Below are positions 6,580-34,520 of a stretch of 64,000 bases of DNA, in pieces. The notes under the pieces were generated by a model. It was not told the origin of the DNA. It searched no databases and saw only the letters and a list, made by a program, of their open reading frames with translations. Each line of letters begins with the position of its first letter. Within the stretch, counting starts at the first letter, position 1. This DNA is from Bugula neritina (lineage: Eukaryota; Bryozoa; Gymnolaemata; Cheilostomatida; Bugulidae): the NCBI GenBank assembly GCA_964035545.1, contig OZ037771.1:6800690-6864689 (forward strand), read 5' to 3'. Position numbers and translations under genes: made by a program.

Positions 6580-6660
6580 TGTATATACTATGTATTTTTA
6601 TATACTATATATTATTATATACTATATATTATTATATACTATATATTATTATACATATTA
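6580..6660. repeat. TATACTATATATTAT repeat, copy A intron 3
   Basis: About four units of an 18-bp TATATACTATATATTATTA-like repeat. The B counterpart at 18195-18385 has roughly eleven units, which explains about 97 bp of the length difference between the two introns. Confidence 0.75.
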
Positions 6661-10373: not shown

Positions 10374-10762
10374 AATAGTTATAGAAGAGTTTGTTAGGAG
10401 GAAGAGAGAACAAACTAAGAAAGGGTTAATTAACTCTGCAGAAAAAGATGTGAAAGAGCTAGCACTAAGGATAGAGGATGACTTGAAAAAGGTAGTACTG
10501 AGAGTAGAAAATGATATAAAGTAGTTAAGATAAAGGGTAGAAAACAACACGAAGGAGCTAAGACTAAGGATAAAGGTTGCAAGGAATCGGAAAGCTATAA
10601 AGAAAAGCAATTCACCGTGGCTAGTCTGGCAGATAAAAAGTTGAAAGAGGAAGAATATATGTTAACTTAAATATTAACTTGATATTTATGAATTTATAAA
10701 CTTATAATGGGTTTGAGTGAGTCAAGTTTGTAGTATATGCAATTTACATATTTAACTTGTAA

Positions 10763-10796
10763 GATATGTAATATGTAATATGTAATATGTAATATG

Positions 10797-10848
<52 letters not shown>

Positions 10849-10863
10849 CATATTAAATATTAC

Positions 10864-10912
<49 letters not shown>

Positions 10913-10919
10913 TATATAT

Positions 10920-10966
<47 letters not shown>
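10763..10966. repeat. ATATGTA / TA / CA microsatellite block, hairpin-forming (copy A)
   Basis: Tandem AATATGT units run into a long TA tract and then ATTACATATT, the complement of the units, making a large perfect-looking hairpin. A CA tract and a second TA tract follow and end 18 bases before the exon 1 donor region of copy A. Confidence 0.85.
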
Positions 10967-10970
<4 letters not shown>

Positions 10971-11085
10971 AATTTAAACTCACAATGATTGGAATCTTTT
11001 CTGCACTGTCTTTGCTCTGCTGATTTTCTCTGGTGTCTTGTAAATGATTTTCCTTCATCTCAACATAGTCAAACTGAGCAGACAT

Positions 11086-14064
11086 TTTTAGCTTCTTCCA
11101 CAAGCAAAACTTTTTACTAGAAAAAAATTATTTGCTTTAACATTGAAGTAATTTAAAGAAAAATTGACAATAAATAGATAAGAGCTGCATTTAGTTTATC
11201 AAAAGGTTATGATGGTCATCTCTGATACAGAAATTGAACTCCTTAACCTCTTAAACAAATTATGTTAAAAGAACTAACAACCATTAAGTTTAGTGCTGGT
11301 ACTTACAGAACAGCTGCTGCTTTCAGTATATTAGCCAGTTTTACCTGAAAATAATGTTTACCAGTAACCTACTAATAAATTCCTGACAGCAGATTTTTCA
11401 AAAATAAAGCTTATTCCCCGGAAGAGCTGCGACAGTACTGGAGATACAGTGACATTAAGAATATTTTCATTTTGTACCAAGGGAAAGCTCATATCTTCAG
11501 TATTCATAACACTTATACAGCATGCTGAACTAGGTCAGTAGGTTGCTGTATCTGAAAATGTAAATAATCCTATCCCTCACTTAGTAACTTTAAGAATACT
11601 CGTTCAAGCAGAAAATTTGCCAAAATGAAGGGCAATACACGTGCCATACCGAGGTTTATAGCTATGTTTTCTATTTGTCATACTTTCGGTTCTGTTTAGT
11701 TTTATTGGCTAAAATAACTGCTATAGCTATATAAGCTATATACACAGTATACTGTGTATTAAAGTATAGTGCAGTAGGTTTTTTACTGTTCTTCAACAAT
11801 TCTGCTATAGTTGTAGCACATTTGCTTTTCTGCACATGTTGGTATTAACAAATAACAATTACACTGACACGTTTTTTATGTATTTTGTTGATGAAATTTC
11901 TGTTTATGCAGTGCATTCATTTTTTGATGTGTTTCATTTAGGAATATAAGTCTGCTGTTAAAGTTATCTTTCAATTAGTTAGCTGTTGCTATATGGTGAA
12001 ACTAGCTTTCTGAAAAAACACATTTTCTACAGAATCTACTTTAGCAACCAAGGTCTCGTATGACCTCCAACTTGCAGGTCAGCATGCTAATCACCACGCT
12101 AGCTATACGGGTCACTGGGGAACCACAACACCGCAGCCTTTAGACTTATGAATAAGGTATGAACGGAACTTTAACAATTACAGACACATGTCAAGCTCTC
12201 ACAAGTGAAGCTTTTACAGAGAAAAAATACTACTAGTGCCTGACATAGCAGGAAAATAGTCACCACTAGAGTATATGTGTCGGTAAATAGGTCAATAATT
12301 CAATAGGTCAATAAAGCCTACACCATGGGAAAAGGACTAAAAAGATTGACAACGGCTCCAGAACTGGCCGGTTGGCAGAAATATATTGCTATAATGTATA
12401 GATGATATAGAAAAATAACAATGATTGATGGTTACATTAAGCTGGCCAACAAGTTGTTGTCAGTATTAATACAGGCTAGTAAATTGCTCACTTACCCTGA
12501 ATATATTATACACTAAAATAGGTTATTATTTATCACAGATGCCTATCATTGTCACTGTTTTAAATATGTTTTCAAAACCACCATGATCAGATAAATACTG
12601 TTACGTAGCAAAACTTAAAGCAGAGCTGTCTAATTACATTTATGTAGTGTAAAAGTTTGCTATTAGGTATACTCAAATACAGGTTCAAATTGTATACCCA
12701 TCAAATTAGACTTTATAGCATGTTTTTTGCAGCAATACATCTTCAATTAGTTTACTAGCTGCATGAGCAACACAATTATAAAGCTGCAACCTAGTGAAAA
12801 AATAGGTTAACATTCAGAAAATTTACCACACTAAAGTGTTCCAAAATATATATTTGTCCCCTTATATAATTTATAATATGTGGTTTAGGGCCATCATTGT
12901 GCCTTACATGTTTGTTTTATATTTGGATATTAAATGAGTTACAATAGCACAATCCATGAATGTATAACTACAAGGATTTTATATGATTCATCAAATTATA
13001 ATAGTCCTCAGTTGTAGTAAAGTAGAAATTAAAGCAGCTGCCGTTTTCTATTTCTTTCAAATTGCAGTTTGTCAACTGTAAATTGTGTTTATTCATTAAG
13101 CTTATATTGTGACATAAAACTAATTCTTTACTATAGCTGATTACATGCATGTTGATAAATTCTAACTGTGATACAAATATCAACATTAATGCTGGTTAGT
13201 TTCAGTTTAAACACTGAAATGTTTAGATATATATATTAGCGTCCTGATTAAACCTACCTATCAAATCTTCCGGAATAGATCCCGGAGCTGCACAATAATA
13301 GCTATTATAACTTTGGTTACTATAAAATATGATGTGTATATCCCTACTGATAAGTGATTAATAAAATGATGTTTATAATACTGCGATGAAATGATTATCC
13401 TTCATAATTAACTGGCTTTTTATTAGGCTAATTCCTGAAGATTAGGCTAACTAAATTTTCTTGAGCCTCATCTATATAGCCTCTGTCACAGAGTTCTGAA
13501 TCATCCTAGTGACATTCTTTGTATTGCAGAAGCAGCTAAAAAAAGTCTATCATAAAATTTAAGAGTGCAATCAGGTCTATCTTCATCAAGGAAGCAAATA
13601 AAAAATGGGTGCAAAAAATTATTTCAAAGCTGGGAATGCAACACTAAAATTATGACTAACTGATACATATCTATTTTTTCCTATTTTGATACTGCAAAAA
13701 TGTTATCGGACTGTCCGTTTTACTACCCAACATTACCTCAACTCTGCAGCAGTGTGTAAAATGTTCTTTCAGCAACATAATTGGCTACATAATCAATAGC
13801 TAGCTTGTCAAAACAGATATTTAGGAACTAATGCTAGTTACTCATTGAGCGGATAACTCTGTGTTGAGCATACATGGCACTGCAGGTTGAGCTATGCCAG
13901 TATAATAACTGTATATATAGCTTATTGATTGCATATACTACATGAATACGGCGACAAAATTCCAGTGAACTAAATCTAGAGCAGGTCTGATGCATGCAAA
14001 CTGAGTATTGAAAATGAATAGAGCCATAAAATGTTCGACCAATGATAACACGAGGTTGTGTGTA

Positions 14065-14140
<76 letters not shown>

Positions 14141-14764
14141 CCGGGTTTCAAAGTATATTGAAATGGGCAAGTTTTCATTCAAAACAAATACTGGGGTTAC
14201 TATTGCTTTTTCATTGATGATAATTTTATTAAATGTCTATCAATAATGTACCAGTACATTAAAAAACTTAAAAACAGATCGCTGTAGATTATATATGCTC
14301 ACAACAAATGAAAGTGTTGGCCTTATATGTATATTTTACTTTAACAGTTCAATTGTTATATTGATAATTTTACAGCTTTGACTATATGAGGTCAATTAAG
14401 GTACATACTCGTATTGTATGTATTATAATATTTGTTACTAATAAATAAGAACATGATGCAGCTTATTGTTTATGAAGTAGAAGGAAAAATTATCAGCCAG
14501 TTGAAATGTATAAAAACGAATTTATATATAAACAATTTAGGCCTTTTTTGAAAACTAATAAATTACAGTATTTGTTAAATATAACAACTTCAAGATGAAA
14601 TAGCAAGAATTCAGTAAAATATTTTGCTTTGTTTAATAAAGTTGTTTACAGTCTGAAAAATCCTTTCTTTTTGTAAATAAATAAATAAAAAATCCTTTCT
14701 TTTTTATTATTTACATATGTTTTATATCTAAACTGAGACATTAATAATTTGTGAGGTTTAGAAT
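11086..14764. other. Spacer between copies A and B
   Basis: Homologous to 23713-27301. It holds a minus-strand tRNA-like stretch near 12055-12125 and the TA tract at 14066. Promoter sequence of A should lie just above 11085 but no clear TATA box was identified. The 72-residue minus ORF at 12968-13186 is copied at 25583 but has no recognised features. Confidence 0.6.
14066..14138. repeat. TA microsatellite upstream of copy A
   Basis: About 36 TA dinucleotides. The corresponding place upstream of copy B (about 26695-26706) has only five or six. Confidence 0.9.
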
Positions 14765-17700
14765 TTAGCCATCATCGTCTTCTAATAGCCTCTTCTCTGT
14801 ATAGCCTCGGAGTCTGCCGTCTACACCATATTTGGCAACTATAAGCTGAGATGCTACTAATAGTAAAAACATGGCAAGGAAACCTATCAAAAGGATGTAC
14901 ATCAACGTCATGGGCCCAGTGAGTTTAAAAAGAGAAGTCACTAAAGTTGGTTCAACCAGGACTCCAGCACACTCCCCCATTGTCAGGACCACTAACACAT
15001 AGGTGTCATCTGTAATATATTAGCAATGTTATTAGATAGTTAGTTATGCAGCTATATAACAGTGACTTTATGTGCTAAAAAAATTAGTAATAAATAAACA
15101 GCATTGTATTTTCTTAAGCTACAATGCTGGTCTCACCCGGTAAATGGTTAGCAGCCCAGGAGAAAACTGCACCAGTTGTAGTAGAATAGGCAAGGCCGAG
15201 AACTGCTGTGAATATCCAAAGGACTGCTGCAGAGTGAGCACTGAATATTGTTAGGAAAATGGCTCCTATGATGCCAATAATAATGTCTATCAGTAAGATC
15301 TGGAAGGAGGATAAATGCTTTGCTATCCAAATTCCTAAAATATAAAACATAGCAACAGATTCCAATGATATGCATTTTCTTTTTACACAACGCAGTGTAT
15401 TGTAATGTGTAAGGCAGGATTTATCTTAAAGCCAGTATTTATTCAAACTAATCATGTTTATGTTTATGTTTGTCTATTTAAAAAGAACTCTGTGTGGTCT
15501 ACTTCTAGCCTCAATCACTAGTCTTTTTATAATTTTCTCCCTTTTAAAGCATAGCAATCTGTACATGTGCGGAACATATTTAGTTATCTGGTATGTTTTT
15601 CTGCTTGTATGTCTGGTTTATGACATGTCTATTTTTTTACACAAGTTTATATGACCATATTAGATAAATTTCTATGGAACAGCCGTGGTCTATATGAGGG
15701 GTTAGAGACTTTGCCTAGTAAGTACTAAGTCATGGGCTCCAGCCCAGACAAAGGTCATTGGTAATGTTAGGAAGAGCATCCAGTCATAATTGCTCCTATG
15801 CTTCATCTGAATAAGTCTTTAGCCTGATTAAAAAAATCTCTTCGTCAGTGGGTTTCTTACAGAGATGGCGACTATAAACTTGCATGAGATATAAGGTAAA
15901 TTTTTGCAAACCTACCTGCCAGACGACCAAAGCAAAGAAATGTCCAGAAGAGTGATGAGATATAGACCCCTTCTGTCTCTGTAAAGTGGAGAGGACCCAG
16001 CACAGAGAAAGTGGTTATCAGATTACTATACGTCTGCTGAGTTCCAAACTGTAGCAGTGAGAGCATAAACATGAAGATGAGTGTTAACGAGAGGGGTGCT
16101 GAACAGTCTCTAAATGAGATTGAGTCAGACTGAGAACTGCCAGATTTAGTATTTCTTATGGGAAGACCACTTCTACGGTGCTGAATACAGAACAATGTTG
16201 CTGGTATGCAGGAGATAACTCCCATTATTATGTAATAGAAGTAGACATGCGTCTTTGTGAACTCTTCCTCCAAGTCTGAAGGTATGGTAGGCTGTTCACC
16301 AAAGCTAGTGTTGTGTAACTGTCTAGGAGTTGTATTAGATAAGAGTATGGGAGGCATTTCGGCCAAAACACTTGTGTAGCTATAAATATAATTAACACAT
16401 TGATATGAAGTTACTGGCTATATGATTCCATATAAAACTAAACTAAAATATTAACCGATAACAGAAATATTTTTTATATAATTGCAGCTTTCACCAACAT
16501 TAATTTCAATATGCAATTAAATTTCTCCAGTATGCTTACTTTTGAGGTAATGTTTCATTTAATTGAGATTTATCTGTATGCCATGTTGTCTGTTTTACTC
16601 TATGGCTATTGGTTGAGTCAGCAAGAAAAGGTCGGGCTATGAAAGGTCCACATATGCTGCCTACAGACACTCCTAAACACACAGCCTGTAGGTACATACC
16701 ATTCCGTTTCCTTCCACCAAGTCGAATTGATATGCAAAAGACTCCTATCAAGAACATCAACACCTTTTATGAGTTACAAGTCGGCTTTTCTAATAGCTTT
16801 CTCTCTTCCTTCCTGTTTATTATTTTCATAAATCAAATCAGATTAACAATGATGAAACAATAAGTATTCTGCTAGAGCTGTTACTCATCTTTGAGATCAT
16901 TAAATGATGTCTACTAAAATATGTACATACTCAACGTCGCTTCACAAACACTTTTGCTGAAAACTTTAGTACAAATCATACTTTTAAAACATTTTAGGGC
17001 TAATGTAAACGACTTTCTAATTAAAAATAATTAGTAGAACAATCTTAATTATTTAGTTAACAACTAATATAGTCCATATTTTATTGAACAGGTACGATAA
17101 ATAAGCTAGCCACTTTCTAACAGCCTAAAAGTGCTTTCTAAGTTTACTTATAAGAAAGTATAATAAAAATACACTAAAATGCTCATCACTTTTTAAAGCC
17201 TCTTTGTTTTGATAATTAAAAAATTTTTTTTAGGGTGGGGAGGAGGTTGCACTTTTATGACAGCGTACACCCCTTTTATACCGACCGCTGCCATTCTCCT
17301 GCTGACCTGGACAGCAACCTTTATAGCATGTATGCTTTGAGCATAGGCAATACCTTCTCACCAATTTGAGCAATTCCTTCCATGAAGCCTTGTCCAACAA
17401 ACATCAAACACATAACATATACACTCCTGAATGCAGGCACAAGGGCAGTGAAGACAGCTTTTAGAGTCAAACAGACAAACAGAGTAAACTGGTCGTTGAA
17501 TCTACAAAATAGAAATTTTACTCTTTATAATATTATTACCTTCAACCAGAAACATGTAAATAATTTATATGTCTAAATTGTCTGAAACCAGATAATTTAT
17601 GCATATAATATATGATAAATATTTTCTTCTATTTAATGCCACTATTACATAATTTACATTATGGTTTCTTTGTTTGATATGTCATCTGAAGCTACCACAC

Positions 17701-20700
17701 TGCTAGAATATAGCAAAATTGATTTATAAATTTAAAGTTTTATTAATGATATTATGTATTTTCACTTGAATAAGGTGTTAAGAATGCCAGCTCAGCAAAT
17801 ATTAAAAGCTAAAGATTCTTTGATTAAGTTAAATTTCTAATTTGGGCTAAAAATCAAAAAATCACTAATAGATATTGTAGCTATGTAGTATGTATACAAC
17901 TACTCGGATAAAATAAAGTTTTACTCAAGCTCAATGTTGTTTATTTTTATAGCTGAAAGTTACTATTACTATAACTTGTAACAAATGACACTTCTTTTAG
18001 CTCAATCAACTTGATACTAACAAGTGCACCATATAGTTTAAACATAAAACTGGGTACAAGCTTGACTTTCAACAGTTAGATATATCTGCCCAGTACCATA
18101 AACTACATACATGAAAAATAGACAGTGGAAACAAAATTATGGAAGATGCCAAGCATAGCACCTATTCAAGAATGTACCCTAAAAATGCTAAATATTAAAT
18201 ATTATTACATACTATATTTTATTATATACTCTATATTGTTATATACTTTGTATTATTATATACTATATAATTATTATTATATACTTTATATTGTTATATA
18301 CTTTGTATTGTTATATACTATATATTATTATAAACTATATATTATTATATACTATATATTATTATATACTATATATTATTATACATATTACAATTGACAT
18401 ATAAAACAATAAACAACTTTGATAGAAAAAAAAGATTTGTATCTCACTATTTTGTTAAAATGGCTCTTAAAAAATTCCTATAACATCAATGTTGATATTA
18501 CTATATTATATTAATTAAATAGAACAATTGATAGCTTAGATTAGGAGAAAATTGATAAATTATCTTAATTTGCTGTGAAAGAAAAGAATGACCTGTAAAA
18601 GCTATGCAGCCTGTGGTCCTGGTTTATGTTCATCACGGGTGCAGGGGGAGACCACTCCTCTAACATTATATAAATTGTAAGCAAAAATAACAACACATTT
18701 TTCTACTACAATTACAGTTTATAGCTTCATATCACAGATTTATATGCTTAACTGTTATATCTATGCAATATTGTATATATTTAATATTAAGACTAATCAC
18801 GGATATCAACTTTAAGTATTACATTATATATATTACCCTAACATTTTAGAGGAAATTATAATTCCTACAGCATGTGACTTATTAAATACACTGAGCAATA
18901 AGTTACTTAATATTATCTTTTTGAATTTCTGATCGCTTACCTAGCGAGATGATAATAATTAATAACCAAAATAAATCATATTGGTTTTTAATTTAAAAAT
19001 TCTTTTTATTCTTGCTATGTCTAAGAGTTATTAAACTTTAAAATTGCTGGTTTAATGCCCCACAGCTATATAAGCTATATTTTAGTTTTGATAGTTAATC
19101 TTAAAATGACTAAGATTAGTTAATTACTTAATTAATTAGTTGTTATATGTAACCCAAACATATTCATTCCATTTAAGTACACTAAAGTGTCATATTTCCA
19201 GACGTCTAGTATTTAGGCTGTCTGTAATATGCATATTTCTATACTTATAGATGTATAATTACTGTTTATTTGTACTAGAAAATACCCATACTTACTCTTT
19301 GTAAAGAATTTTTGCAAGGAGACAAGAAACCAGGAAACCAACAGACTGCGATGCAAACAGCCAAGCCCCTTGTTCTAGAGAAATGGAAGCTACCTGCATC
19401 AAGTCTATCAGAGTTGGACCCACAGAGTTGAACACCAGACCCTGGAACACAGAACTGTAATGAGGGAACAATTTATTCTGTTATTATTTTGGGTGCAACA
19501 TTCATACCGAACATCAGGTTTTACTAGAATGCTACGACTGTTAAAAATAAATATTAAAAGAGAAACAGTGTGTGTCTATAACTCACTCGACTGAAAAAGG
19601 CTAAATTACAAGTGATAAGCTGAAAGAACACTTGTCCAGTAAGTGTGTCACTTTCCATGTCACTGTCATCACCCTGACCTTCTGTTGGCTCACTTTCTAT
19701 TGTCTCATATCTTTCATTTGACTTCTGGAAGCAAAAAAAATAATATTGTAGTCTATTAGTCTCAGCTACTGAGATATTTGCAATTTGTTAGTTGGTTAAC
19801 ATTGCTGCCCAAGTAATGTTATATAGCTGACGTTGATGTGGCAGCCAATAACGATCCGCCATTAAAAGATATAGTATGTGCTTATGAATAATATGCCACA
19901 TATATCTTTAGGAATAAAAACTAATCTTGTGATTGTAATTATGGAAAAAAACACACTTTTGTGTCATTGCTGAAATTGAGAGGCTATATTAGGCCTGTAG
20001 TAATTGAGTCATGGCAAAATATTCCCACTTTATTTTAAAACGAGATCAATTTATTATATACTAGAATATTATAATGTATCCTAATATATAATATATAATA
20101 ATATATTATATATTAATCTTATTGTTGATTATTATTGTGTTAAAAAACATATTTTAAAACAAATAATGCTTTTACTTAAATGAAGAATACTCTAGTCAAT
20201 AGAAAAGAAGGCTGATGGTTTTTTCCAACCAAAATGTGCAAAGTCACAACAGGTTACCATGAAATAAGCTGCCAAATATACAATTCTTCAAGATCACATT
20301 TGCCCAACAAGCTTTTATGTATACTTTACCAGAATAGCATAGGATTTGGGTCTCATTATTGTCAACATGACTAATAGCATTCCAACGCCCTTCTCTAGGT
20401 CATTGGGATGCTATCAGTTAGTGAGCTGCTCAAATTTATTTGCAAGGCCCTCAAAAGCTGTAGATAGCTGCTTTAAAAAATATTTTAACTTTACCATCAC
20501 AGTTGTCAAATTTAATAGATGTGTGCTCTTTCATTTTTCAAATGTGGTCAAGCTTCATTAATTCTCAGCACATGCATGGAATAAATTGTCAACAAACCAA
20601 ACTTATCCAGTCAGTTTACGGAACACTGATTTTGTAAGCTGTAAATAATATATAGCAATCAAACTAGTGTGATGAATAAAATCTATCTAGTTTTAGCTAG

Positions 20701-23449
20701 ATTTAAGTACAACTAGTTGAAAGCAGTATTAGTCAATTCATCTAATCTATAATTCATAAGATTATAAACTTCTTTACCACAAAAGTAGTTAAAAAGAGCT
20801 AAAAAAAATTTATTATTTTGTTTGTGTAACTCAATCAATTTAAGCTACTTTTTAGCAAACCGTAGGGTTTTAGTATGCACCTCCTGACCCTGTATTGAGC
20901 TTTTAACTAAATTAATATGTGTAGTAATATTATAATATAATAGATATATTATTTAGACAAATCTAATAAAATTGTCAGCTATTGGTAATTGACTTAGCTA
21001 ATTGTAACAACATGATAAGAGAACTGCTGGCTGCTTAAACATTGTTACTCAGTAAGTAATATTACATTAAACTTAAAAACTGAGCAAGTTTTGTCATAGA
21101 AACTTTTTTATTTATGTTTGATATCCATGCAATGTATTTAATACAAGAGCATTTAAGCTTATTGTAGCGTGAACTAGCAGTGTAACTGGAGCTAACATTT
21201 TACAAATTCGGTGAATATTTTCGAGATCCAAGATAAAGATAACACTTGTTAGAAATATGTACATTTGTGTACAAATTGTTGAAAACTTGCTATACTTGTA
21301 CCTGATTAAATTGAATTCCTGAGAGTTTTAAAATAAGTTAACAAAATTTTAGAATAGATTGAATAAAAGATGGTGAAATTTATTACGAATATTTCCCCAA
21401 AAACAAGAGCAGCTTGCTCGTGTGTAGGCAAGAATTTACCGCCTACGTTGATGTCCCTTTATTACTCGACTGTTTAAAAGCAATATGGACCAGAGACTAC
21501 ACATTCTAATTATTGCAGAATGCATTAGAATACAGCTATAAAGATATAGGAGTATAAGTTTAAATCAGCACCCAAAGATATTAATGTATCGTTTACCTGC
21601 AAAATTCACCTGTAACAACTAAGAAGTTTTATTGGGTAGAGTTTTCACTAATGAATAAATGAGAAAGTTGGTGGTAAATTTGAGTTTGAAAATGGGCAGT
21701 TCTCTTGGTAAAAATTTTGCTTTATAAAGAATTTTGGAAATTCTTTTTAAAGATTCTTCAATAGTTTGTCTGCTTCAGCGAGGAGTGAGTTGTTTGTTTT
21801 TGCTTTTGTTTTTTGCGCCAGTATATCTGCTGGGTTTCATCCCAGATAAACGCTTCCCAGTTAGACGCTATTTTTATTTTGGTACAACACAATATATAGT
21901 AATATACCTATATATGCTTATATACAGTAACTGTTGTATTAATTGCCAAACATGAAAAAATAGTTAATATAAATTATCTGGAATAACATTCCAATTTTCA
22001 CGGATTTGTGTGGAACAAAAAGACAGTAATACATTAATAATAGACACTATAATCTTTGATGCATGAATACTTTTTAATGAATTTTGTTTTCAAGCAAAAA
22101 GTATAGAAAAGACAAAGTTAGTGAAAATCAAAGGAATTCATTTATGAGCCAAATAACAAACAATTAACCCAAATTTATTTAGATATACGTATATTTCAAT
22201 AACATTCAAATAAATTGCACATATAAATTACATTATACATTGTACTAAGATAAATAAATAAATAACCATCTAACTGGAAAATTTAGCATAGCGTCTAACT
22301 GGGATGACATCATCTGCTGGCCGTTCTATAGAGCTTAATAACACCAACCAATCTTAGCATAATTATATAATACATGCTCTCAGTAATACTATCTATATAT
22401 CTAGATGATGCCATACAAACCTTGTTGAACTAAATAGGTTTATAACTTTACTAGATAACTAATGGGTTGAATAGCAGTGATCAGATTCAGCAAATGTTGA
22501 AACCTGATTATTCTTCACACATTAATTGTCACAAATAAGACGTCTATCTGGTAATCTGAATAAATTGCTACGTATGTCTAATTTCTGAAAGTCGTTCATC
22601 CATGCTCGAAAATTAAAAACCCGATTGCTATGCTCTAATTGAAAACTACAGTATACTTTCAAGTAATGATAATAGTATAGATTAGAGAAGCGTTATCATT
22701 TAAGCACTAAAGCGTATGTTTTCTGAAATTCATCTGAAGCTGAGAATGCAAAGGATAGCAATTAGAGTGATGAGGGAGGATAGAATTAAAAATGAGTGCA
22801 TCTAGAAAGCAATCAGTGTGGAAAGTGATCTTAAAGTAAGTGTAGTGTTGCGATTACACAATAGCCCTTGCGGTGTAGTGGTTACCACGCCAGCTTGCAA
22901 GCCAGAAGTCAGCGGCTCGAATCTCGGCAGGGGCAAAATATTTTACTGCGAGGTTGAGATCATACAAACTGAAGTGGTATGGTCATGTGTTGAAAAGAAA
23001 TGAAGACCATGTGAGAGAAAATAGTTATAGAAGAGTTTGTTAGGAGGAAGAGAGAACAAACTAAGAAAGGGTTAATTAACTCTGCAGAAAAAGATGTGAA
23101 AGAGCTAGCACTAAGGATAGAGGATGACTTGAAAAAGGTAGTACTGAGAGTAGAAAATGATATAAAGTAGTTAAGATAAAGGGTAGAAAACAACACGAAG
23201 GAGCTAAGACTAAGGATAAAGGTTGCAAGGAATCGGAAAGCTATAAAGAAAAGCAATTCACCGTGGCTAGTCTGGCAGATAAAAAGTTGAAAGAGGAAGA
23301 ATATATGTTAACTTAAATATTAACTTGATATTTATGAATTTATAAACTTATAATGGGTTTGAGTGAGTCAAGTTTGTAGTATATGCAATTTACATATTTA
23401 ACTTGTAAGATATGTAATATGTAATATGTAATATGTAATATGTAATATG

Positions 23450-23501
<52 letters not shown>

Positions 23502-23516
23502 CATATTAAATATTAC

Positions 23517-23563
<47 letters not shown>

Positions 23564-23712
23564 TATATATACATATATATATATATATATATAGTACAAT
23601 TTAAACTCACAATGATTGGAATCTTTTCTGCACTGTCTTTGCTCTGCTGATTTTCTCTGGTGTCTTGTAAATGATTTTCCTTCATCTCAACATAGTCAAA
23701 CTGAGCAGACAT
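14765..23712 (-). CDS. MFSD4B-like: MFS transporter copy B (MFSD4B/NaGLT1-like), intact, probably chimeric
   Basis: Eight coding exons, minus strand: 23611-23712, 19587-19724, 19296-19441, 17362-17501, 16540-16744, 15916-16379, 15137-15334, 14765-15009. Phases agree throughout and give 545 residues with no internal stop. The plasma-membrane major-facilitator fold of the MFSD4/SLC60 type is inferred from GLVFNSVGPTLIDL, GGRKRNGMYLQ, TETEGVYISSLFW and GRLAGIWIAKH, the last spanning the exon 6-7 junction. Exon 6 holds a long hydrophilic loop with NTT and NTS glycosylation sequons before the second helix bundle. Exons 1-6 and introns 1-5 are nearly identical to copy A. Introns 6-7, exons 7 and 8 match copy C, including a shared SINE in intron 6. 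Exon 8 encodes the same protein as in C. This pattern is expected if unequal crossing-over inside exon 6 made the gene. The AAG-to-GTG junction sequences are canonical. Intron 1 carries a 920-bp insertion absent from A. Confidence 0.85.
15674..15893 (+). mobile_element. tRNA-derived SINE, copy in transporter B intron 6
   Basis: About 220 bp. It has a degraded tRNA-like head (GCCGTGGTCTATATGAGGGG ... TCATGGGCTCCAGCC) and the shared body AATGTTAGGAAGAGCATCCA GTCATAATTGCTCC, then ACAGAGATGGCGACTATAAAC at the tail. The same insertion is present in copy C intron 6 but absent from the 275-bp intron 6 of copy A. Confidence 0.8.
18195..18385. repeat. Expanded TATACTATATATTAT repeat, copy B intron 3
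   Basis: Expanded homologue of the array in copy A intron 3, with variants such as ATACTTTGTATTGTT. The expansion postdates the block duplication or A has contracted. Confidence 0.75.
21651..22570. mobile_element. 920-bp insertion specific to copy B intron 1
   Basis: Copy A reads TTTTCACTA directly followed by CGTATGTC (9916-9932). In B these are separated by 920 bp, with CTA repeated on both sides as a possible 3-bp target duplication. Inside, CCCAGTTAGACGCTAT (21856-21871) recurs as its exact complement at 22288-22303. No long ORF is present. It is probably a non-autonomous element; the class is not recognised. Confidence 0.65.
22738..23019 (+). mobile_element. Non-LTR reverse-transcriptase remnant (intron 1 of copy B)
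   Basis: Duplicate of the remnant in copy A, essentially identical and interrupted by the same tRNA-like element. It was therefore present before the block duplicated. Confidence 0.7.
22864..22934 (+). mobile_element. tRNA-like SINE head inside the RT remnant (copy B)
   Basis: Same sequence and context as the element in copy A intron 1, carried along by the block duplication. Confidence 0.65.
23409..23593. repeat. ATATGTA / TA / CA microsatellite block (copy B)
   Basis: Same composite array as in copy A, with a shorter second TA tract. Confidence 0.85.
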
Positions 23713-26700
23713 TTTTAGCTTCTTCCACAAGCAAAACTTTTTACTAGAAAAAAATTATTTGCTTTAACATTGAAGTAATTTAAAGAAAAATTGACAATAA
23801 ATAGATAAGAGCTGCATTTAGTTTATCAAAAGGTTATGATGGTCATCTCTGATACAGAAATTGAACTCCTTAACCTCTTAAACAAATTATGTTAAAAGAA
23901 CTAACAACCATTAAGTTTAGTGCTGGTACTTACAGAACAGCTGCTGCTTACAGTATATTAGCCAGTTTTACCTGAAAATAATGTTTACCAGTAACCTACT
24001 AATAAATTCCTGACAGCAGATTTTTCAAAAATAAAGCTTATTCCCCGGAAGAGCTGCGACAGTACTGGAGATACAGTGACATTAAGAATATTTTCATTTT
24101 GTACCAAGGGAAAGCTCATATCTTCAGTATTCATAACACTTATACAGCATGCTGAACTAGGTCAGTAGGTTGCTGTATCTGAAAATGTAAATAATCCTAT
24201 CCCTCACTTAGTAACTTTAAGAATACTCGTTCAAGCAGAAAATTTGCCAAAATGAAGGGCAATACACGTGCCATACCGAGGTTTATAGCTATGTTTTCTA
24301 TTTGTCATACTTTCGGTTCTGTTTAGTTTTATTGGCTAAAATAACTGCTATAGCTATATAAGCTATATACACAGTATACTGTGTATTAAAGTATAGTGCA
24401 GTAGGTTTTTTACTGTTCTTCAACAATTCTGCTATAGTTGTAGCACATTTGCTTTTCTGCACATGTTGGTATTAACAAATAACAATTACACTGACACGTT
24501 TTTTATGTATTTTGTTGATGAAATTTCTGTTTATGCAGTGCATTCATTTTTTGATGTGTTTCATTTAGGAATATAAGTCTGCTGTTAAAGTTATCTTTCA
24601 ATTAGTTAGCTGTTGCTATATGGTGAAACTAGCTTTCTGAAAAAACACATTTTCTACAGAATCTACTTTAGCAACCAAGGTCTCGTATGACCTCCAACTT
24701 GCAGGTCACCACGCTAGCTATACGGGTCACTGGGGAACCACAACACCGCAGCCTTTAGACTTATGAATAAGGTATGAACGGAACTTTAACAATTACAGAC
24801 ACATGTCAAGCTCTCACAAGTGAAGCTTTTACAGAGAAAAAATACTACTAGTGCCTGACATAGCAGGAAAATAGTCACCACTAGAGTATATGTGTCGGTA
24901 AATAGGTCAATAATTCAATAGGTCAATAAAGCCTACACCATGGGAAAAGGACTAAAAAGATTGACAACGGCTCCAGAACTGGCCGGTTGGCAGAAATATA
25001 TTGCTATAATGTATAGATGATATAGAAAAATAACAATGATTGATGGTTACATTAAGCTGGCCAACAAGTTGTTGTCAGTATTAATACAGGCTAGTAAATT
25101 GCTCACTTACCCTGAATATATTATACACTAAAATAGGTTATTATTTATCACAGATGCCTATCATTGTCACTGTTTTAAATATGTTTTCAAAACCACCATG
25201 ATCAGATAAATACTGTTACGTAGCAAAACTTAAAGCAGAGCTGTCTAATTACATTTATGTAGTGTAAAAGTTTGCTATTAGGTATACTCAAATACAGGTT
25301 CAAATTGTATACCCATCAAATTAGACTTTATAGCATGTTTTTTGCAGCAATACATCTTCAATTAGTTTACTAGCTGCATGAGCAACACAATTATAAAGCT
25401 GCAACCTAGTGAAAAAATAGGTTAACATTCAGAAAATTTACCACACTAAAGTGTTCCAAAATATATATTTGTCCCCTTATATAATTTATAATATGTGGTT
25501 TAGGGCCATCATTGTGCCTTACATGTTTGTTTTATATTTGGATATTAAATGAGTTACAATAGCACAATCCATGAATGTATAACTACAAGGATTTTATATG
25601 ATTCATCAAATTATAAAAGTCCTCAGTTGTAGTAAAGTAGAAATTAAAGCAGCTGCCGTTTTCTATTTCTTTCAAATTGCAGTTTGTCAACTGTAAATTG
25701 TGTTTATTCATTAAGCTTATATTGTGACATAAAACTAATTCTTTACTATAGCTGATTACATGCATGTTGATAAATTCTAACTGTGATACAAATATCAACA
25801 TTAATGCTGGTTAGTTTCAGTTTAAACACTGAAATGTTTAGATATATATATTAGCGTCCTGATTAAACCTACCTATCAAATCTTCCGGAATAGATCCCGG
25901 AGCTGCACAATAATAGCTATTATAACTTTGGTTAGTATAAAATATGATGTGTATGTCCCTACTGGTAAGTGATTAGTAAACTGGTGCTTATAATACTGCG
26001 ATGAAATGATTATCCTTCATAATTAACTGGTTTTTTTATTAGGTTAATTCCTGGAGATTAGGCTAACTAAATTTCCTTGAGCCTCATCTATATAGCCTCT
26101 GTTACAAAGCTCTGAATCATCCTAGTGACATTCTTTGTATTGCAGAAGCAGCTATAACAAAAGTCTATCATAAAATTTAGGAGTGCAATCAGGTCAATCT
26201 TTATCAAGGAAGCAAATAAAAAAATGGGTGCAAAAAATTATTTCAAAGCTGGGAATGGAATGCAACGCTAAAATTATGACTAACTGATACATGCAGCGCT
26301 TATCTATTTTCTCTTATTTTGATACTGCAAAAATGTCACCGGACTGTCCGTTTTCCTACCCAACATTAACTCAACCCTGCAGCAGTGTGTAAAATGTTCT
26401 TTCACCAACATTATTGGCTACATAATCAATAGCTAGCTTGTCAAAACAGATATTTAGGGTCAATGCTAGTTACTCATTGAGCAGATAACTCTGTTTTGAG
26501 CATACATGGCACTGCAGGCTGAGCTAGACCAAAATAATATCTGTTTATATAGCTTGTTGATTGCATATAATACATAAATATGGCAACAGAATTCCAGCAA
26601 GCTAAATCTAGAGCAGGTCTAATGCATGCAAACTGAATGTTGAAAATGAATAGAGCCATAAAATGTTCGGCCAATGATAAAACGAGGTTGTGTGTGTATA

Positions 26701-27301
26701 TATATAAGCCAGGTTTCAAAGTATCTTAAAATGGGCAAGTTTTCATTCAAAACAAATACTAGGGTTACCATTGTTTTTCCATTGATGATGATTTTATTAA
26801 ATGTCTATCAATAATGTACCAATACATTAAAAAAATTAAAAACAGATTGCTGTAGATTATATATGCTCACTATAAATGAAAGTGTTGGCCTTATATGTAT
26901 ATTTTACTTTAACAGTTCAATTGTTATATTGATAATTTTACAGCTTTGACTATATGAAGTCAATTAAGTTACATACTCGTATTATATGTATTAAAATATT
27001 TATTACTAATAAATAAGAACATGATGCAGCTTATTGTTTATGAAATAGAATGTAAAATTATCAGCCAGTTGAAATGTACAAAAACTAAACTATATATAAA
27101 CAATTTAGGCCTTTTTTGAAAACTAATAACTTACAGTATTTGTTCAAATTAACAACTTCAAGATGAAATAGCAAGAAATCAATAAACTATTTTGCCTTGT
27201 TTAATAAAGTTGTTTACAGTCTGAAAAAATCCTTTCTTTTTTATTATTTACATGTGTTTTATATCAAAACTGAGACATTCACAATTTGTGAGGTTTAGAA
27301 T
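23713..27301. other. Spacer between copies B and C
   Basis: Copy of the A-B spacer. It is nearly identical to about 25930 and then differs at roughly one base in ten to the end. A 12-base deletion falls in the tRNA-like stretch near 24700. Confidence 0.6.
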
Positions 27302-30300
27302 TTAGCCATCATCGTCTTCTAATAGCCTCTTCTCTGTATAGCCTCGGAGTCTGCCGTCTACACCATATTTGGCAACTATAAGCTGAGATGCTACTAATAG
27401 TAAAAACATGGCAAGGAAACCTATCAAAAGGATGTACATCAACGTCATGGGCCCAGTGAGTTTAAAAAGAGAAGTCACTAAAGTTGGTTCAACCAGGACT
27501 CCAGCACACTCCCCCATTGTCAGGACCACTAACACATAGGTGTCATCTGTAATATATTAGCAATGTTATTAGATAGTTAGTATAATGTAGCTACAATGAC
27601 CTTATGTGCTAAACAAATATTAGAGACAAAAAGGCTGACGATCAATAAATTTTGATTTGGTAAGCCATTTGAAATTGTAATTCAGCCATTTAAAGCATGA
27701 CTTCTTGCTAATATAATCTCAGTGAGAAGAAACTGCTTATTTCAGTTATGCAGAAGTAAAGGAAGTAAATTATTTTGCTTTTATCTTAAAATACAAACTT
27801 TAGATACTATTTGCGTTTTCGTCTTGCTTTTAGTAAAATTGACATACACTCTACCTTAGGATATAACAGCAAACAACAACAGACAAGTAACAGTTGCACA
27901 GTGAGTTTATATTAGTAATAAATAAACAGCATTTTATTTTCTTGAGCTACAGTGATGGTCTCACCCGGTAAATGGTTAGCAGCCCAGGAGAATACTGCAC
28001 CAGTTGTAGTAGAATAGGCAAGGCCCAGAACTGCTGTGAATATCCAAAGGACTGCTGCAGACTGAGCACTGAATATTATTAGAAAAATGGCTCCTATGAT
28101 GCCAATAACAATGTCTATCAGTAAGATCTGGAAGGAGGATAAATGCTTTGCTATCCAAATTCCTAAAATATAAAACATAGCAACAGATTCCAATGATATG
28201 CATTTTCTTTTTACACAACGCAGTGTATTGTAATGTGTAAGGCAGGATTTATCTTAAAGCCAGTATTTATTCAAACTAATCATGTTTATGTTTATGTTTG
28301 TCTATTTAAAAAGAACTCTGTGTGGTCTACTTCTAGCCTCAATCACTAGTCTTTTTATAATTTTCTCCCTTTTAAAGCATAGCAATCTGTACATGTGCGG
28401 AACATATTTAGTTATCTGGTATGTTTTTCTGCTTGTATGTCTGGTTTATGACATGTCTATTTTTTTACACAAGTTTATATGACCATATTAGATAAATTTC
28501 TATGGAACAGCCGTGGTCTATATGAGGGGTTAGAGACTTTGCCTAGTAAGTACTAAGTCATGGGCTCCAGCCCAGACAAAGGTCATTGGTAATGTTAGGA
28601 AGAGCATCCAGTCATAATTGCTCCTATGCTTCATCTGAATAAGTCTTTAGCCTGATTAAAAAAATCTCTTCGTCAGTGGGTTTCTTACAGAGATGGCGAC
28701 TATAAACTTGCATGAGATATAAGGTAAATTTTTGCAAACCTACCTGCCAGACGACCAAAGCAAAGAAATGTCCAGAAGAGTGATGATATGTAAACACCTT
28801 CTGTTTCTGTTACATGGAGAGGACCCAGCACAGAGAAAGTGGTTATCAGATTACTATACGTCTGCTGAGTTCCAAACTGTAGCAGTGAGAGCATAAACAT
28901 GAAGATGAGTGTTAACGAGAGGGGTGCTGAACAGTCCCTAAATGAGATTGAATCAGACTGAGAACTGCCAGATTTAGTATTTCTTATGGGAAGACCACTT
29001 CTACGGTGCTGAATACAGAACAATGTTGCTGGTATGCAGGAGATAACTCCCATTATTATGTAATAGAAGTAGACATGTGTCTTTGTAAAATCTTCCTCCA
29101 AGTCTGAAGGTATTGTAGGCTGTTCACCAAAGCTAGTGTTGTGTAACTGTCCAGAAGTTGTATTAGATAAGAGTATGGGAGGCACTTCAGTCAAAATTCT
29201 ATAGATAAAAAATTAGGAGAGTTTTATGAAGGTGTTATGGTTGATTAGCTCTAAAGTCTAAAGTAACACGTTTCGTGTATTCTAAAGAATTTCAAATTAT
29301 GCCTATCCTAAGAAAATAAAAATTTTCTGCTTCAAATGCATTACTTTATAAATTTACTTTGCATGTGGCAATAGTTGATTTCTAATTTTTGCCAAATTTT
29401 TCTATACTAAAAACTATTAGGTTTACTTTACTTTTTGAAAATATTCCTAAATTAGTATTGCTGATACTATACTCTCAAAACAATAATTTTTATCTGTATG
29501 TACTAGTTATGTGTATAAAGTAGTTTTTTAAATGAATATATTTCACAAACAATGTCAATACTTCAATTAAAAGTTACTCGCTAATTAAAAGATTTGATAT
29601 TGTACAAAAATACATTTCTTAAAATAGGGAGCCTTTCAATAATAATTAAATAGTAAATATTTACAGCTTTTATACAATAGGATTTAATTGACTTAATTTA
29701 TTCATTATTTTCTCTAGCTTTTAAGTCATCTAAATATATTTTTTATTGTAAGTTTCATTGTACATAAACTACTGTAATATAGCAGCACTGCATGCTATTA
29801 TATACACGATTTTAGAAAAATGTTACAAAAACTTAGATAAGCTAAAAAGCTAAAGTTTTTGTGTGAACTGAAATTAATGGATTACCCTACTCAATTTCAT
29901 AACATAAATTTATTGTGCTCCTAAAGAACAGTCATCATTATTTTCTATAAACTGCATTAAAATTCATAATTCTTCTTAATTATTGCTGAAGCAACAATTA
30001 TTGGATACATAAACATAAAAAGTACACATTGTTTAGGAATTAAAATTAGTAAAAATGATGAAACTGGAAAGCATTAATAGCCTTAAGTTCAGAAGCCTCT
30101 GCTTTAAATTAAAAATATAGCCTTGCTTACGTAGATGTGTTCATTTGAAGTTCATCTGAATGCCATTTTGTCTCTCTTATTCTATGGCTATTGGTTGAAT
30201 CAGCAAGAAAGGGTCGGGCTATGAAAGGTCCACATATGCTGCCTACAGACACTCCTAAACACACAGCCTGTAGGTACATACCATTCCGTTTCCTTCCACC

Positions 30301-32965
30301 AAGCCTGATTGCTATGCATGTAACCCCTATAGTAATTACAACCACACTATTTTTAAGTAAGCAATACAAATTAAATGCTTATGTGTAAATGATGTTATTA
30401 GTTTAAATGCAATGTAGTGTAATAAAGTATCCTTCTTAATTACTAATAGTAGTAATTTTTATCAATCTGATATCTGACCAATGCCTGCTATGCCTTCCAT
30501 AAAGCCTTGTCCAACAAACATCAAACACATAACATATACACTCCTGAATGCAGGCACAAGGGCAGTGAAGACAGCTTTTAGAGTCAAACAGACAAACAGA
30601 GTAAACTGGTCGTTGAATCTACAAAATAAATTATATTTGCTGTTAGCATTAATAAATTGTATGCACAAGAACATTATTAGCATACAAATTATTAGAGAAA
30701 ATTTTATTTATTTATTTAATTTAAATAAATTTTATCATAAATAGCTGTAGCTTACAAATCTAACTTTACTATAATTTATCTTGAATTCTCAGCAGTTTGT
30801 TTAGTTAATAATTTCTGGTTGATTAATTAAAACTAGTAGTTAGGTGTATCAAACAGCATGAAGTTCTGCTGTGTAGCATTAGCTGTCAATTTCAACTACT
30901 ACTCAACATCTTATCAGAAAAACTGATGCTTAACTTATATTAGCCTAAATAAGAACAAGATGTTAAAATAAGATGTTAAAATAGTTTATTATAGTCATAA
31001 CTCATAATAGTATAGTAGTGTAGTAGCATTTTCAAAATGTTTCATTATTAATCAAAACATTATACTTATTGGTATAAAATCGTTCCAAGCAGTAAAATAA
31101 TGTATGAAAGATAAATTATATGAGAACATGTTAGATATATACACGTATATAAAATGAAGTGTTCACAATTCTATATAGGCTAAAAAGTATATTAAAATTA
31201 TATTCAAATCTTGTCTAAATATAAATAAGATAACCTGTAAAAGGTATGCGGCTTATAGTCTCGGTTCCCAGTTTATAATCACATGGGGTGTAGCTGGAGA
31301 CCACTCATCTAACATTATATAAATAAACAACAGTTTCATCAATCAGAGTTACTATACATGGTATTTATTTGTATATATAGAGTTGCTATAATACAGTTGA
31401 TTATAATATCTGGTTTGAACAAAGAAAAAAGCATGTGTAAATCCTCTTCAATTTGTGTCCACTTAAACTTGTATTTTGTTTTCGAAACGTGAAGGCTGTA
31501 GAAAGAATGGTTGATAGAGAAAACTATGGGTGAATCCAAGTTTTTAGCCTTAAAATAGACTGTACATTGCCAACTCCAGGATAAGTAATGAATATTTAAC
31601 TGAGAACGCATGAGGTGACAGGTTGCCTGAGGATGTACATGTTGTCTGACTTCTAGTGTAAGATATAAACCCAATATTAGAGAATTTTATGCCTCAAACT
31701 CTAATACTTTAAGCTAACCAATAAAGGATTTCTTTGAGATATGTGTCATCTATTTCCAGCATTTCAATATGGACAACTGAGCTAAATCATAACAGTGAAC
31801 AAATGTAGGTGGTGCATTACAGTGAAAACTTAAGCTAAAGTTTTACAGTGAACAGGGAGTTGGTTGATTATAGCAGTACTTGCAAGCAACTTCAACCTGT
31901 CGCTATAAACTGATATCTTAAAGTAAAGGCAGCAACAATAATTACTCAAATAATTGTTTTAAATAGATTTTTGCCATATCCATAAAATATTTTCCGCTAT
32001 ACCTGAAAATGACAAAGCGGAGATAGGCGAGAATAGAATATCTACAAAATATTTTGCATAAACTTGAAGGTTGACCTCACAAATGCGGAGTAATCAAAGC
32101 ATGACTGAAAACTGCTCCACAATGCCAATTCCCTTCAACATAATATTTTATTTAAAAAAAGTTCACAAGTTAATGTTGAGCAATTTTATAATACTAGCAC
32201 ACACTTACCTGCTGAAAACAACTTTTGCAACGAAACATGAAATCAGGAAACCAACAGACTGCGATGCAAACAGCCAAGCCCCTTGTTCTAGAGAGATGGA
32301 TGCTACCTGCATCAAGTCTATTAGAGTTGGACCCACAGAGTTGAACACCAGACCCTGGAACACAGAACTGTAATGAGGGAACAATTTATTCTGTTATTAT
32401 TTTGGGTGCAACATTCATACCGAACATCAGGTTTTACTAGAATGCTACAATTGTTAAAAATAAATATTAAAAAATAAACAGTGTGTGTCTATAACTCACT
32501 CGACTGAAAAATGCTAAATTACAAGTGATAAGCTGAAAGAACACTTGTCCAGTTAGTGTGTCACTTTCCATGTCACTGTCATCACCCTGACCTTCTGTTG
32601 GTTCACTTTCTATTGTCTCATATCTTTCATTTGACTTCTGGTAACATACAAATATATAGTTATAGAATTAATATTTTATGCATATTATATGAAAGTCTTT
32701 TAAGTGAAAAAAATTATAAACTTTGTTACAAACTTTTCAAGGTGAATATTTCAAGTATCATGTACATGTGCAGTTGCGAAATTGCTTTATTCTGATATTG
32801 CAGTGTTCTTGTTTTGAACACCATAAAAACCACTTAAGTCACCTGCACAAACTGGAATTTACCAACTGCATGTTATAGCTATAAACTGGATATCAGCCAG
32901 TTTCTGCTGGTCATGGTCGATAACATTACACTACTCAGAAATATAATCAGTTGACAAACATATAT

Positions 32966-32997
<32 letters not shown>

Positions 32998-34520
32998 GTT
33001 TTTTGTCAGGGACTACAAGTAAAGAATTTACAATTAGCCATTTTAAAGCTAAACAAGTAATTTGCTTACATAACTCACTAACCAAAATAATTTACAATAT
33101 TAGTACCAGGTTGTATGAGTGTGGCATATAGTATAAGGTAGGCTTCATATCACAGATTAAGTTGGCATATATTGGTTAATTAGACTGAGAAAAAGGTTCA
33201 TAGTGAATGCAAGAATTTTTGACTGCAGTCAAACGAAACATGGAATGCAGTTAAATGAATTGTGGAATCTTACTGGTTTTTACTAGTAAGTTGTTTTCTA
33301 ATATATAGTACTAGCTCATTAGACCGTATATTATATCCATGCACCAATTACTTATGGCTTTCTATACGGGGATAATGTTGACGGATTGCTTGGCCTGCCA
33401 CCTGTTGCCAGATAATATATTATCATAACTAGGTAGGTTACAGCTGTATAGTGGTTCCGTGAATTTAGTAGAATTAGAAAACATGAGCATTTGTAATTGT
33501 GGCAACAAGAGATTATGGGAAATCTGTTGTAAATACAGCTTTATTAAATATTATTTATTTCACGTGTTCAAAATATTCTGCCTTTATTCTATGAAAAAGT
33601 CTTTTAACATATTTTTCTCACAACATAACAAATAATATCTAGCCTACAAAATTTATGGAATTAAAGCATAATATTATTAGGAATACATCATGAGATCTAC
33701 TAGCTAACTGTTAAAGCAAAAGGTTGCCTCTATATAGCCTACTATCACAACTTTAAAATATACCTAAACTCAGCATAACAGCTACACTCTTCCTATAATT
33801 TATATAGCTTGTTAAATATAATTATACCTATACCCTTATACTTAAAATACGAGCCTAATGCTTCTAATGCACGATTTAATACATATCTAAATGCCTATAA
33901 AACATAGCATATTACTGCATAGTACATAGTCTAATACATATAATACAGTACTCTAATATCTATAATAATGCGTATGCTATTTTAAATATACCTATATTTG
34001 CAGACAATAGCTTTGTAGTAAGTAATGATTAAGCATTGTTTTTGTTATATAAATGAATGTGAAAGCAACAAGAAAATTCAAACAACTTATAATAAATTCA
34101 TACTAGAAATACTAGAAACGATACCACCAACATTTATTTAAAAAATGTTGAGTAAAATGTAAAAGGTGTAGCTACAAAAACCAGAGTGAGTAATACATAG
34201 TTAGAGTGCTGGCCTAGTGAACACAAAGTCAGTGGTTGAGGTTTAAACGCTGGGTGGTGACGTTAGCAAAATCGCATTCATAATAGCTCCTGTTAGCCTG
34301 CTTTCAGAAATCCTCTCAATCAGGGGTTCCTTTAGGGCGGCTAATATAACTCACGTGAGTCTATTATATCAGCAAAAACCAGCCCTCCAAATTTATTGAG
34401 TGTAAAATAGCTACTTACAACGATTGGAATCTTTTCTGCACTGTCTTTGATTTGCTTATTTTCTCTGGTGTCTTGTAAATTACTTTCCTTCATCTCTACA
34501 TAGTCAAACTGAGCAGACAT
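27302..34520 (-). CDS. MFSD4B-like: MFS transporter copy C (MFSD4B/NaGLT1-like), intact
   Basis: Eight coding exons, minus strand: 34419-34520, 32500-32637, 32209-32354, 30479-30618, 30131-30326, 28744-29198, 27965-28162, 27302-27546. They give 539 residues in phase. Exon 1 begins MSAQFDYVEMKESNL, confirming the start chosen for A and B, because the sequence upstream of the ATG differs. The exon 5 end and exon 6 beginning differ from A and B (TST-ILTEVPP here, PQN-YTSVLAEMPP there), and introns 1, 3, 4 and 5 are clearly diverged, so C is the older paralogue. Intron 2 (145 bp) and its flanking exons are nearly identical to A and B. The exon 4 donor reads GTCAGA rather than GTGAGA and may be weak. 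Introns 1 (32638-34418), 3 (30619-32208), 5 (29199-30130), 6 and 7 exceed 300 bp; intron 6 has a SINE and intron 1 a degraded SINE-like stretch near 34190-34370. Confidence 0.85.
28502..28721 (+). mobile_element. tRNA-derived SINE, copy in transporter C intron 6
   Basis: Identical in position and almost in sequence to the SINE in copy B intron 6, so it predates the duplication and marks B's 3' part as C-derived. Confidence 0.8.

Follow-up and report, generated by a model that had tools for sequence, protein, structure and literature searches.

In Bugula neritina, a 64,000-nucleotide stretch (assembly tzBugNeri2.1, GCA_964035545.1; contig OZ037771.1, positions 6,800,690 to 6,864,689), hereafter called the window, comprises three tandem MFS transporter genes, A, B and C, each with eight exons and all on the minus strand. 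Our analysis indicates, with a probability of roughly 0.87, that the middle gene B is a hybrid of A and C that arose by unequal crossing-over in exon 6, with exon-confined gene conversion before and after this event. The gene models, built on splice sites and reading frame, are as follows:

2267 to 11085, minus strand: gene A; exons 11085-10984, 7997-7860, 7714-7569, 5872-5733, 5115-4911, 4750-4287, 4011-3814 and 2508-2267.
14765 to 23712, minus strand: gene B, the hybrid; exons 23712-23611, 19724-19587, 19441-19296, 17501-17362, 16744-16540, 16379-15916, 15334-15137 and 15009-14765.
27302 to 34520, minus strand: gene C; exons 34520-34419, 32637-32500, 32354-32209, 30618-30479, 30326-30131, 29198-28744, 28162-27965 and 27546-27302.

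The hybrid lies between both parents and in the same orientation. An earlier prediction made from this DNA (the original prediction) had given its span as 14765 to 28744, of which the first coordinate stands, while 28744 is the low end of exon 6 of C. Following B from its 5' to its 3' end, the closest partner changes across exon 6:

16380 to 23712, minus strand: A-derived part of B (exons 1-5, introns 1-5); A-B divergence of 0-0.3% in introns 1, 4 and 5, 1.4% in intron 2 and 2.0% in intron 3.
14765 to 15915, minus strand: C-derived part of B (intron 6 with a dispersed repeat, exon 7, intron 7, exon 8), as judged by B-C divergence.
15676 to 15888, plus strand: dispersed 213-bp repeat in intron 6 of B; the same insertion is present in C at 28504-28716 and absent from A.

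On the 5' side, the differing sites between A and B amount to 9/2959 in intron 1, 2/145 in intron 2, 33/1690 in intron 3, 1/617 in intron 4 and 0/160 in intron 5. Introns 1, 3, 4 and 5 of C align with those of A or B at chance level (about 38-52% different), and all three genes have much the same intron 2 (145 bp). On the 3' side, B and C are identical in intron 6 (0/581) and exon 8 (0/245), and the 3' flank of B is also C-type. Gene A has an intron 6 of 275 bp compared to 581 bp in B and C, which aligns at chance level (130/265 different), an intron 7 unrelated to that of B and C, and an exon 8 that differs at 63/242 sites. The introns show the change of partner across exon 6: A and B differ at 1/777 sites over introns 4-5, where C is unalignable, while A is the unalignable gene in the intron 6 that B shares with C. 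The 213-bp repeat, a putative short interspersed element, has copies scattered through the genome (2686 first-look candidates, 40 of them scored, the copies in B and C included).

Much of what the original prediction had described is borne out by these figures: A's intron 6 is short, unrelated and without the repeat, intron 6 and exon 8 of B follow C, and the constant offset of 11629 between A and B holds for exons 4, 5 and 6 (17501/5872, 16744/5115 and 16379/4750). Some of its statements have to be narrowed. Exon 7 had been said to follow C together with exon 8, but it is a near tie (6/198 from C, 8/198 from A). An A-B match "almost base for base" does not extend to exon 5 (9/205), exon 6 (16/464) or a patch of intron 3 at 6380-6610 (26 substitutions, most of this intron's differences), nor does A have the following insertion:

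21648 to 22567, unstranded: insertion of 920 bp in B intron 1, not present in A.

The middle of this insertion (about 185-665) has matches of 72-80% to a dispersed repeat family (40 of 598 candidates scored), and its ends appear inverted-repeat-like by eye near CCCAGTTAGACGCTAT. The intron 3 patch adjoins a 17-bp tandem array whose copy number is unequal between A and B (6582-6653 versus 18199-18383).

The second line of evidence is the duplication itself. Comparison of the window against itself with BLAST identifies a repeated unit of about 12 kb, spacer included, with both ends inside exon 6:

4274 to 16368, unstranded: copy 1 of the repeated unit, running from exon 6 of A to exon 6 of B.
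15903 to 29196, unstranded: copy 2 of the repeated unit, running from exon 6 of B to exon 6 of C.

Positions 4274-14074 match 15903-26706 in three pieces, and 14129-16368 match 26697-29196 in two. Homology stops at 4274/15903 and 16368/29196, which is in exon 6 or at most 13 bases from it. The claim that the whole spacer is duplicated therefore holds. In the anti-Lepore globin fusion, a hybrid gene lies between its two parents as a result of out-of-register crossing-over, and the spacer is duplicated. The proposal that B is a fusion of this type is supported by the parents on both sides, the 5' part from A, the 3' part from C, the duplicated spacer and the position of both duplication ends at the same place in exon 6. 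We know of no other single event that leaves duplication ends at the same place in exon 6 of both parents.

15903 to 16379, minus strand: exon 6 of B with its edges, the interval holding the putative crossover; A-B homology ends at 15903 and B-C homology at 16368.

As a recombination test we used a maximum-descent statistic like that of 3SEQ, with shuffles of sites. Over all exons, 0/20000 shuffles reach the observed value, a result that is driven by exon 8. Within exon 6, 12 informative sites with B=A and 7 with B=C are interleaved, 10542/20000 shuffles reach the observed statistic, and the breakpoint cannot be placed from these sites. The putative crossover is bounded by the flanking introns and not by exon sites, and a site test would have low power if the exon had already been homogenised. 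The predicted switch of partner within exon 6 (15916-16379) is retained in the sense that the introns confine the crossover there, but no switch is visible at the exon sites. A private cluster of B at sites 411-420 of exon 6 has no donor among the seven paralogues (0/7 match at all four sites). In trees with these seven paralogues as outgroups, exons 3-5 group A with B (support 91/89), exon 6 is not resolved, exon 7 groups B with C weakly (82/83) and exon 8 is identical in B and C. The two parts of B do not give one topology in these trees, exons 3-5 being placed with A, although B with C is not rejected there, and exon 8 being that of C. The proof of the presumed hybrid is carried by introns, not by exons.

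The exons have a history of their own, which is best visible between the two parents. Exons 1-7 of A and C are much more alike than their introns (except intron 2) and exon 8. Synonymous divergence (dS) between A and C is 0.92 in exon 8, and 0.09-0.38 in exons 1, 2-3, 4, 5, 6 and 7. Compared without gaps, A and C lose their similarity, down to chance level, no more than about 30 bp from the splice site at each edge of exons 1-7; the two edges that face intron 2 are the exception. This 145-bp intron has only two A-C differences (98.6% identical) and was carried along with exons 2 and 3, and exon 6 aligns over 455 bases at about 96%, flanked by unrelated introns. The likeness of the A and C exons is best read as ectopic gene conversion at the DNA level, which would be confined by the loss of intron homology.

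A further comparison comes from an older B. neritina draft. Among its annotated proteins, EB796_010496 is A-type and EB796_010500 is C-type over annotated exons 4-8; we infer that these locus tags belong to the draft of PMC7576161, the available text of which does not tell which cryptic type was sequenced. With one A-type and one C-type protein there, B is most simply the recombinant. When the draft is set against the window, 15 residues in exon 8 follow orthology and 0 follow lineage, and exons 4-5 give 7 versus 0. In exons 6-7, however, 9 lineage-specific residues shared by paralogues compare to 5 shared by orthologues, and no residue is crossed. Paralogues are closer than orthologues within a lineage in exons 6-7, as expected of concerted evolution, and the relation is reversed in exon 8.

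Exchange also appears to have continued within B after the hybrid was formed:

16635 to 16707, minus strand: minimal tract in exon 5 of B shared with C; six consecutive B=C sites with A-type flanks.

Along exon 5, the informative sites of B are nine A-like, then six C-like, then A-like with one C-like, and a run of six occurs in 8/50000 shuffles. The tract is internal and bounded on both sides, as expected of conversion. Only B and C have the Ile-to-Val replacement that falls within it; Ile is found in A, in the two EB796 proteins and in each of the seven paralogues. Most simply, part of exon 5 of B was overwritten from C. In places, moreover, exons exceed the introns between them in divergence: exons 5-6 differ between A and B at 25/669 sites compared to 1/777 in introns 4-5 (p 5e-8), and exons 6-7 differ between B and C at 27/653 compared to 0/826 in intron 6 plus exon 8 (p 2e-10). 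These p-values describe rather than test, because the segments were picked after viewing the segment table.

Further family members occur in two other clusters of the genome, one on contig C1 at 33.395-33.429 Mb and one on C2 at 33.456-33.485 Mb (within 33394000-33429999 and 33454000-33489999). Pairwise comparison covered exons 3-8 of the six pairs possible within P1-P3 and within Q1-Q3, leaving out exons 1-2 and P4, which is on the opposite strand. Exon edges of P1-P4 and Q1-Q3 derive from tblastn hits without splice checks and may over- or undershoot by tens of bases (P1 exon 6 overshoots). Strong exon-by-exon mosaics are seen in three of the six pairs. In P1/P2, identity is 93% in exon 3, 62% in exon 4, 63% in exon 5, 92% in exon 6, 79% in exon 7 and 97% in exon 8, with introns at 43-52%; P1/P3 is similar (94, 65, 63, 90, 72 and 94% for exons 3-8). 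In Q1/Q3, the values are 99, 66, 89, 75, 72 and 63% for the same exons, with introns at 47-55%. We give about even odds to the general proposition that the exon is the unit of exchange in this transporter family, diverged introns confining recombination to single exons, and that B is such an exchange resolved as a crossover. If true, paralogues would be patchworks of exon cassettes, each with its own history, a pattern present in pairs from each of the three clusters examined, and diverged introns would serve as firebreaks, restricting homogenisation and preserving the reading frame of chance crossover products. The cluster on C1 also contains a 345-bp inverted pair of 97.1% identity (33403068-33403412 / 33426631-33426287), one arm of which is located between exons 5 and 6 of P4.

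Several observations weigh against the explanation of B by crossover and exon-confined conversion. One is the divergence along the duplicated unit, which is bimodal:

13251 to 14735, unstranded: diverged part of the spacer duplication, with 90 substitutions (5-10% in each 250-bp bin), adjoining a zone of about 0.3%.

The copy of this block lies below 27300. The block has a sharp edge near 13250, and on the A side the unit is nearly identical: over noncoding 4751-13250, 21 of about 7538 bases differ, the patch at 6380-6610 left out. A single recent event that remained untouched would give uniform divergence, and instead blocks of about 0.3% and 5-10% are found; a single event with nothing afterwards is thus not what these data would predict. 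At the exon level, there is no switch in exon 6, the recombination test weakens to 263/20000 shuffles for exons 1-7 alone and 901/20000 for exons 5-7 alone, and exons 3-5 do not significantly reject B with C (approximately unbiased test, p 0.132). Of the seven exon 5 sites with B=C, three have outgroup states in favour of A's allele, three in favour of the B=C allele and one in favour of neither, so that the outgroups alone do not settle the direction of the tract. The excess of exons over introns is not general either, since exons 3 and 4 differ less between A and B (1/146 and 1/140) than intron 3 (33/1690), and intron 7 differs more between B and C (16/116, plus a 294-bp insertion-deletion difference) than exons 7 and 8. 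The other three of the six pairs lack a strong mosaic: P2/P3 is alike also in introns 3-5 (83-93%) and represents a plainer recent duplicate, and Q1/Q2 and Q2/Q3 show mild unevenness only (exon 5 79-80%, rest 57-74%). Finally, P0005, a metagenome open reading frame of exon 6 that is about 80% identical, has an upstream edge of A/B-type and a start of intron 6 of B/C-type, compared by eye. Its edges imply that a hybrid-like arrangement may predate the lineage, or that A's intron 6 may be the altered one. If P0005 is itself a hybrid from a different lineage, as it may be, B would be older or the event would have happened more than once.

The bimodal divergence can be accommodated in more than one way. 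Patchy divergence would be expected of a crossover between two unlike homologues in a polymorphic population, since the unit copies would then represent two haplotypes; this is the account we prefer, but it would be explained as well by long later conversions. The latter underlies the strongest competing history, in which the duplication is older, the 5-10% block (about 6%) records its true age, and the 0.3% zone is secondary, the present A-likeness of B stemming from one or more long A-B conversions or a second unequal exchange. This history is compatible with a crossover, and both the sharp edge near 13250 and the activity of conversion in the family speak for it. It requires extra long tracts, though, a crossover of two haplotypes would predict the same patchiness, and intron 6 and exon 8 are identical between B and C as well; on balance we regard it as a possible but less probable alternative. 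Far less probable is that the third copy is an assembly artefact of two haplotypes. Identical runs between A and B reach 1088 bp, and the assembly is described as not fully phased in the available text of its report (PMC11480708). According to the same text, it was built from HiFi reads at about 132-fold coverage, and the read and base counts correspond to a mean read of about 9.7 kb, longer than the longest identical run. Moreover, B is no allele of A, for it ends in C's exon 8 and C then follows; the window has no N, and a DNA search of the whole assembly with exon 6 yields only the A, B and C copies plus one match at 76%.

Two other explanations concern the likeness of the A and C exons. 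Purifying selection would be the familiar one, as introns diverge faster in most gene pairs, but one and the same pair has a dS of 0.09-0.38 in exons 1-7 against 0.92 in exon 8. Selection on exons also fits poorly with the 98.6% identity of intron 2, the lineage-specific residues common to the EB796 or the window paralogues and the exon 5 tract of B, and we consider it the least probable of all alternatives. Exchange templated by spliced RNA or complementary DNA (cDNA) would account for A-C tract edges near splice sites. Yet, intron 2 was kept inside the exon 2-3 tract, exons adjacent in a cDNA were not exchanged together (exon 3 of Q1/Q3 is 99% identical, exon 4 66%), and none of the pairs examined has a tract that joins adjacent exons and removes introns, which renders such a template very unlikely.

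Gene A carries a further change that bears on the fate of the hybrid:

4934 to 4936, minus strand: premature stop codon (TAA) in A exon 5; codon 236 of 544.

Apart from it, the spliced A model keeps its frame. Both B and C have CAA at this codon, and Q occupies it in the older draft's A-type protein, so the nonsense change arose in A, which may be a pseudogene of recent origin or a null allele still segregating. As A stops at codon 236, B is the intact carrier of the A-type N-terminal half, and it is the only intact one found here, A being broken in this haplotype.

Taken together, the following course of events is proposed. Two old tandem genes, A and C, would have exchanged by ectopic conversion wherever they were still alignable, i.e., in exons 1-7 and the 145-bp intron 2. 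The homogenised exon 6 would have been left as a long matched patch between unrelated introns and may have served as a substrate for crossover. One exchange in exon 6 between misaligned chromosomes, presumably homologues, would then have been resolved as a crossover. Its product would comprise A, the spacer, the hybrid B (with the 5' half and upstream region of A and the 3' end of C), a second spacer copy and C. Exchange would have gone on, part of exon 5 of B probably being converted from C. The nonsense codon acquired by A would have left B as the intact gene with an A-type N-terminal half.

The B protein, the only one run, matches Pfam MFS_1 with 50.4 bits against a cut-off of 33.4. Its nearest named full-length homologue is a Watersipora subatra protein of 45% identity, named "sodium-dependent glucose transporter 1A-like isoform X2" in the source annotation. 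A homologue of sodium-dependent glucose transporter 1 is presumably linked to MFSD4B / NaGLT1. Searches against sequences of solved structures (E 0.001) and against NCBIfam gave no match, and ColabFold, given the Watersipora homologue P0003 and two more rows, returned a model with a mean predicted local distance difference test score (pLDDT) of 34.1. B differs from A at 40/543 residues, 27 of which are in exon 8, and from C at 37/539, 25 of which are in exons 1-5. Since the parents differ little in exons 6-7, the hybrid amounts mostly to an exon-8 swap relative to A and to an exon 1-5 difference relative to C. The suggestion of a fusion between the N-terminal bundle of one transporter and the C-terminal bundle of another thus applies to the origin of the two ends, 5' from A and 3' from C, and less to the differences it creates. 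Exon 8 appears to hold the last two membrane helices, as judged by eye from the sequence. Upstream of B, there are 0-1 differences from A per 250-bp bin over 11000-13250, plus a 12-bp insertion-deletion difference. As A's upstream region is nearly unchanged in B, B is probably regulated like A. The intact frames of B (545 amino acids) and C (539 amino acids), continuous from end to end, suggest that the hybrid may be functional, in which case B would be expressed and transport something.

The hybrid B belongs to a known gene class; the exon-confined exchange is the more interesting part. Like the anti-Lepore globin gene, B lies between its parents with a duplicated spacer after an out-of-register crossover. 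It differs in that the Bugula parents have unrelated introns and match in exon-sized patches only, and in that one of them is interrupted by a nonsense codon in the reference haplotype. Primate L/M opsins similarly form a tandem array with ectopic conversion, in which exons exceed introns in divergence, as in parts of A-B and B-C (PMC3213168). In gibbon opsins, however, introns are homogenised and selection is said to keep the exons apart (PMC3213168), whereas the A-C exons are homogenised and most introns are unrelated. Primate class I ADH genes resemble the array in that exons and introns disagree in history and exons were converted between tandem paralogues, but ADH1 introns still align and give trees (PMC3409193), while those in Bugula are mostly unalignable and single exons of 93-99% stand beside exons of 62-66%. 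Mosaics of concerted and divergent exons with differing trees also characterise the mammalian BMP8, DDX19 and TUBG pairs, where the tracts span exons and the intervening intron by search design (PMC2720389). Exon-level conversion in newt sodium channels is a precedent (PMC8476164). Among the 10 of 12 papers listed on bryozoans and gene conversion, no title pointed to exon-confined exchange, and for exon-confined conversion elsewhere we found partial precedents.

The locus provides a clean natural hybrid gene in an animal phylum for which the available sources indicate few genomes, and it links exon-confined gene conversion to the birth of chimeric genes, two processes that are usually handled separately. 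Exchanges are readable exon by exon because most parental introns are unrelated, and the array therefore allows a direct test of whether intron divergence limits ectopic recombination. Coding-sequence gene trees of such families call for caution, as they mix several histories.

Among the metagenome proteins, a second candidate, P0007, is an exon-8 open reading frame whose first half is A-type and whose second half is C-type. As an exon-8 chimera it was only suggestive (782/20000 shuffles) and was set aside; P0005 and P0007 are possible further recombinants in related animals. Elsewhere in the window, tandem arrays with overlapping self-matches of 88-95% identity are located at 45787-46210, 47004-47254 and 49145-49598.

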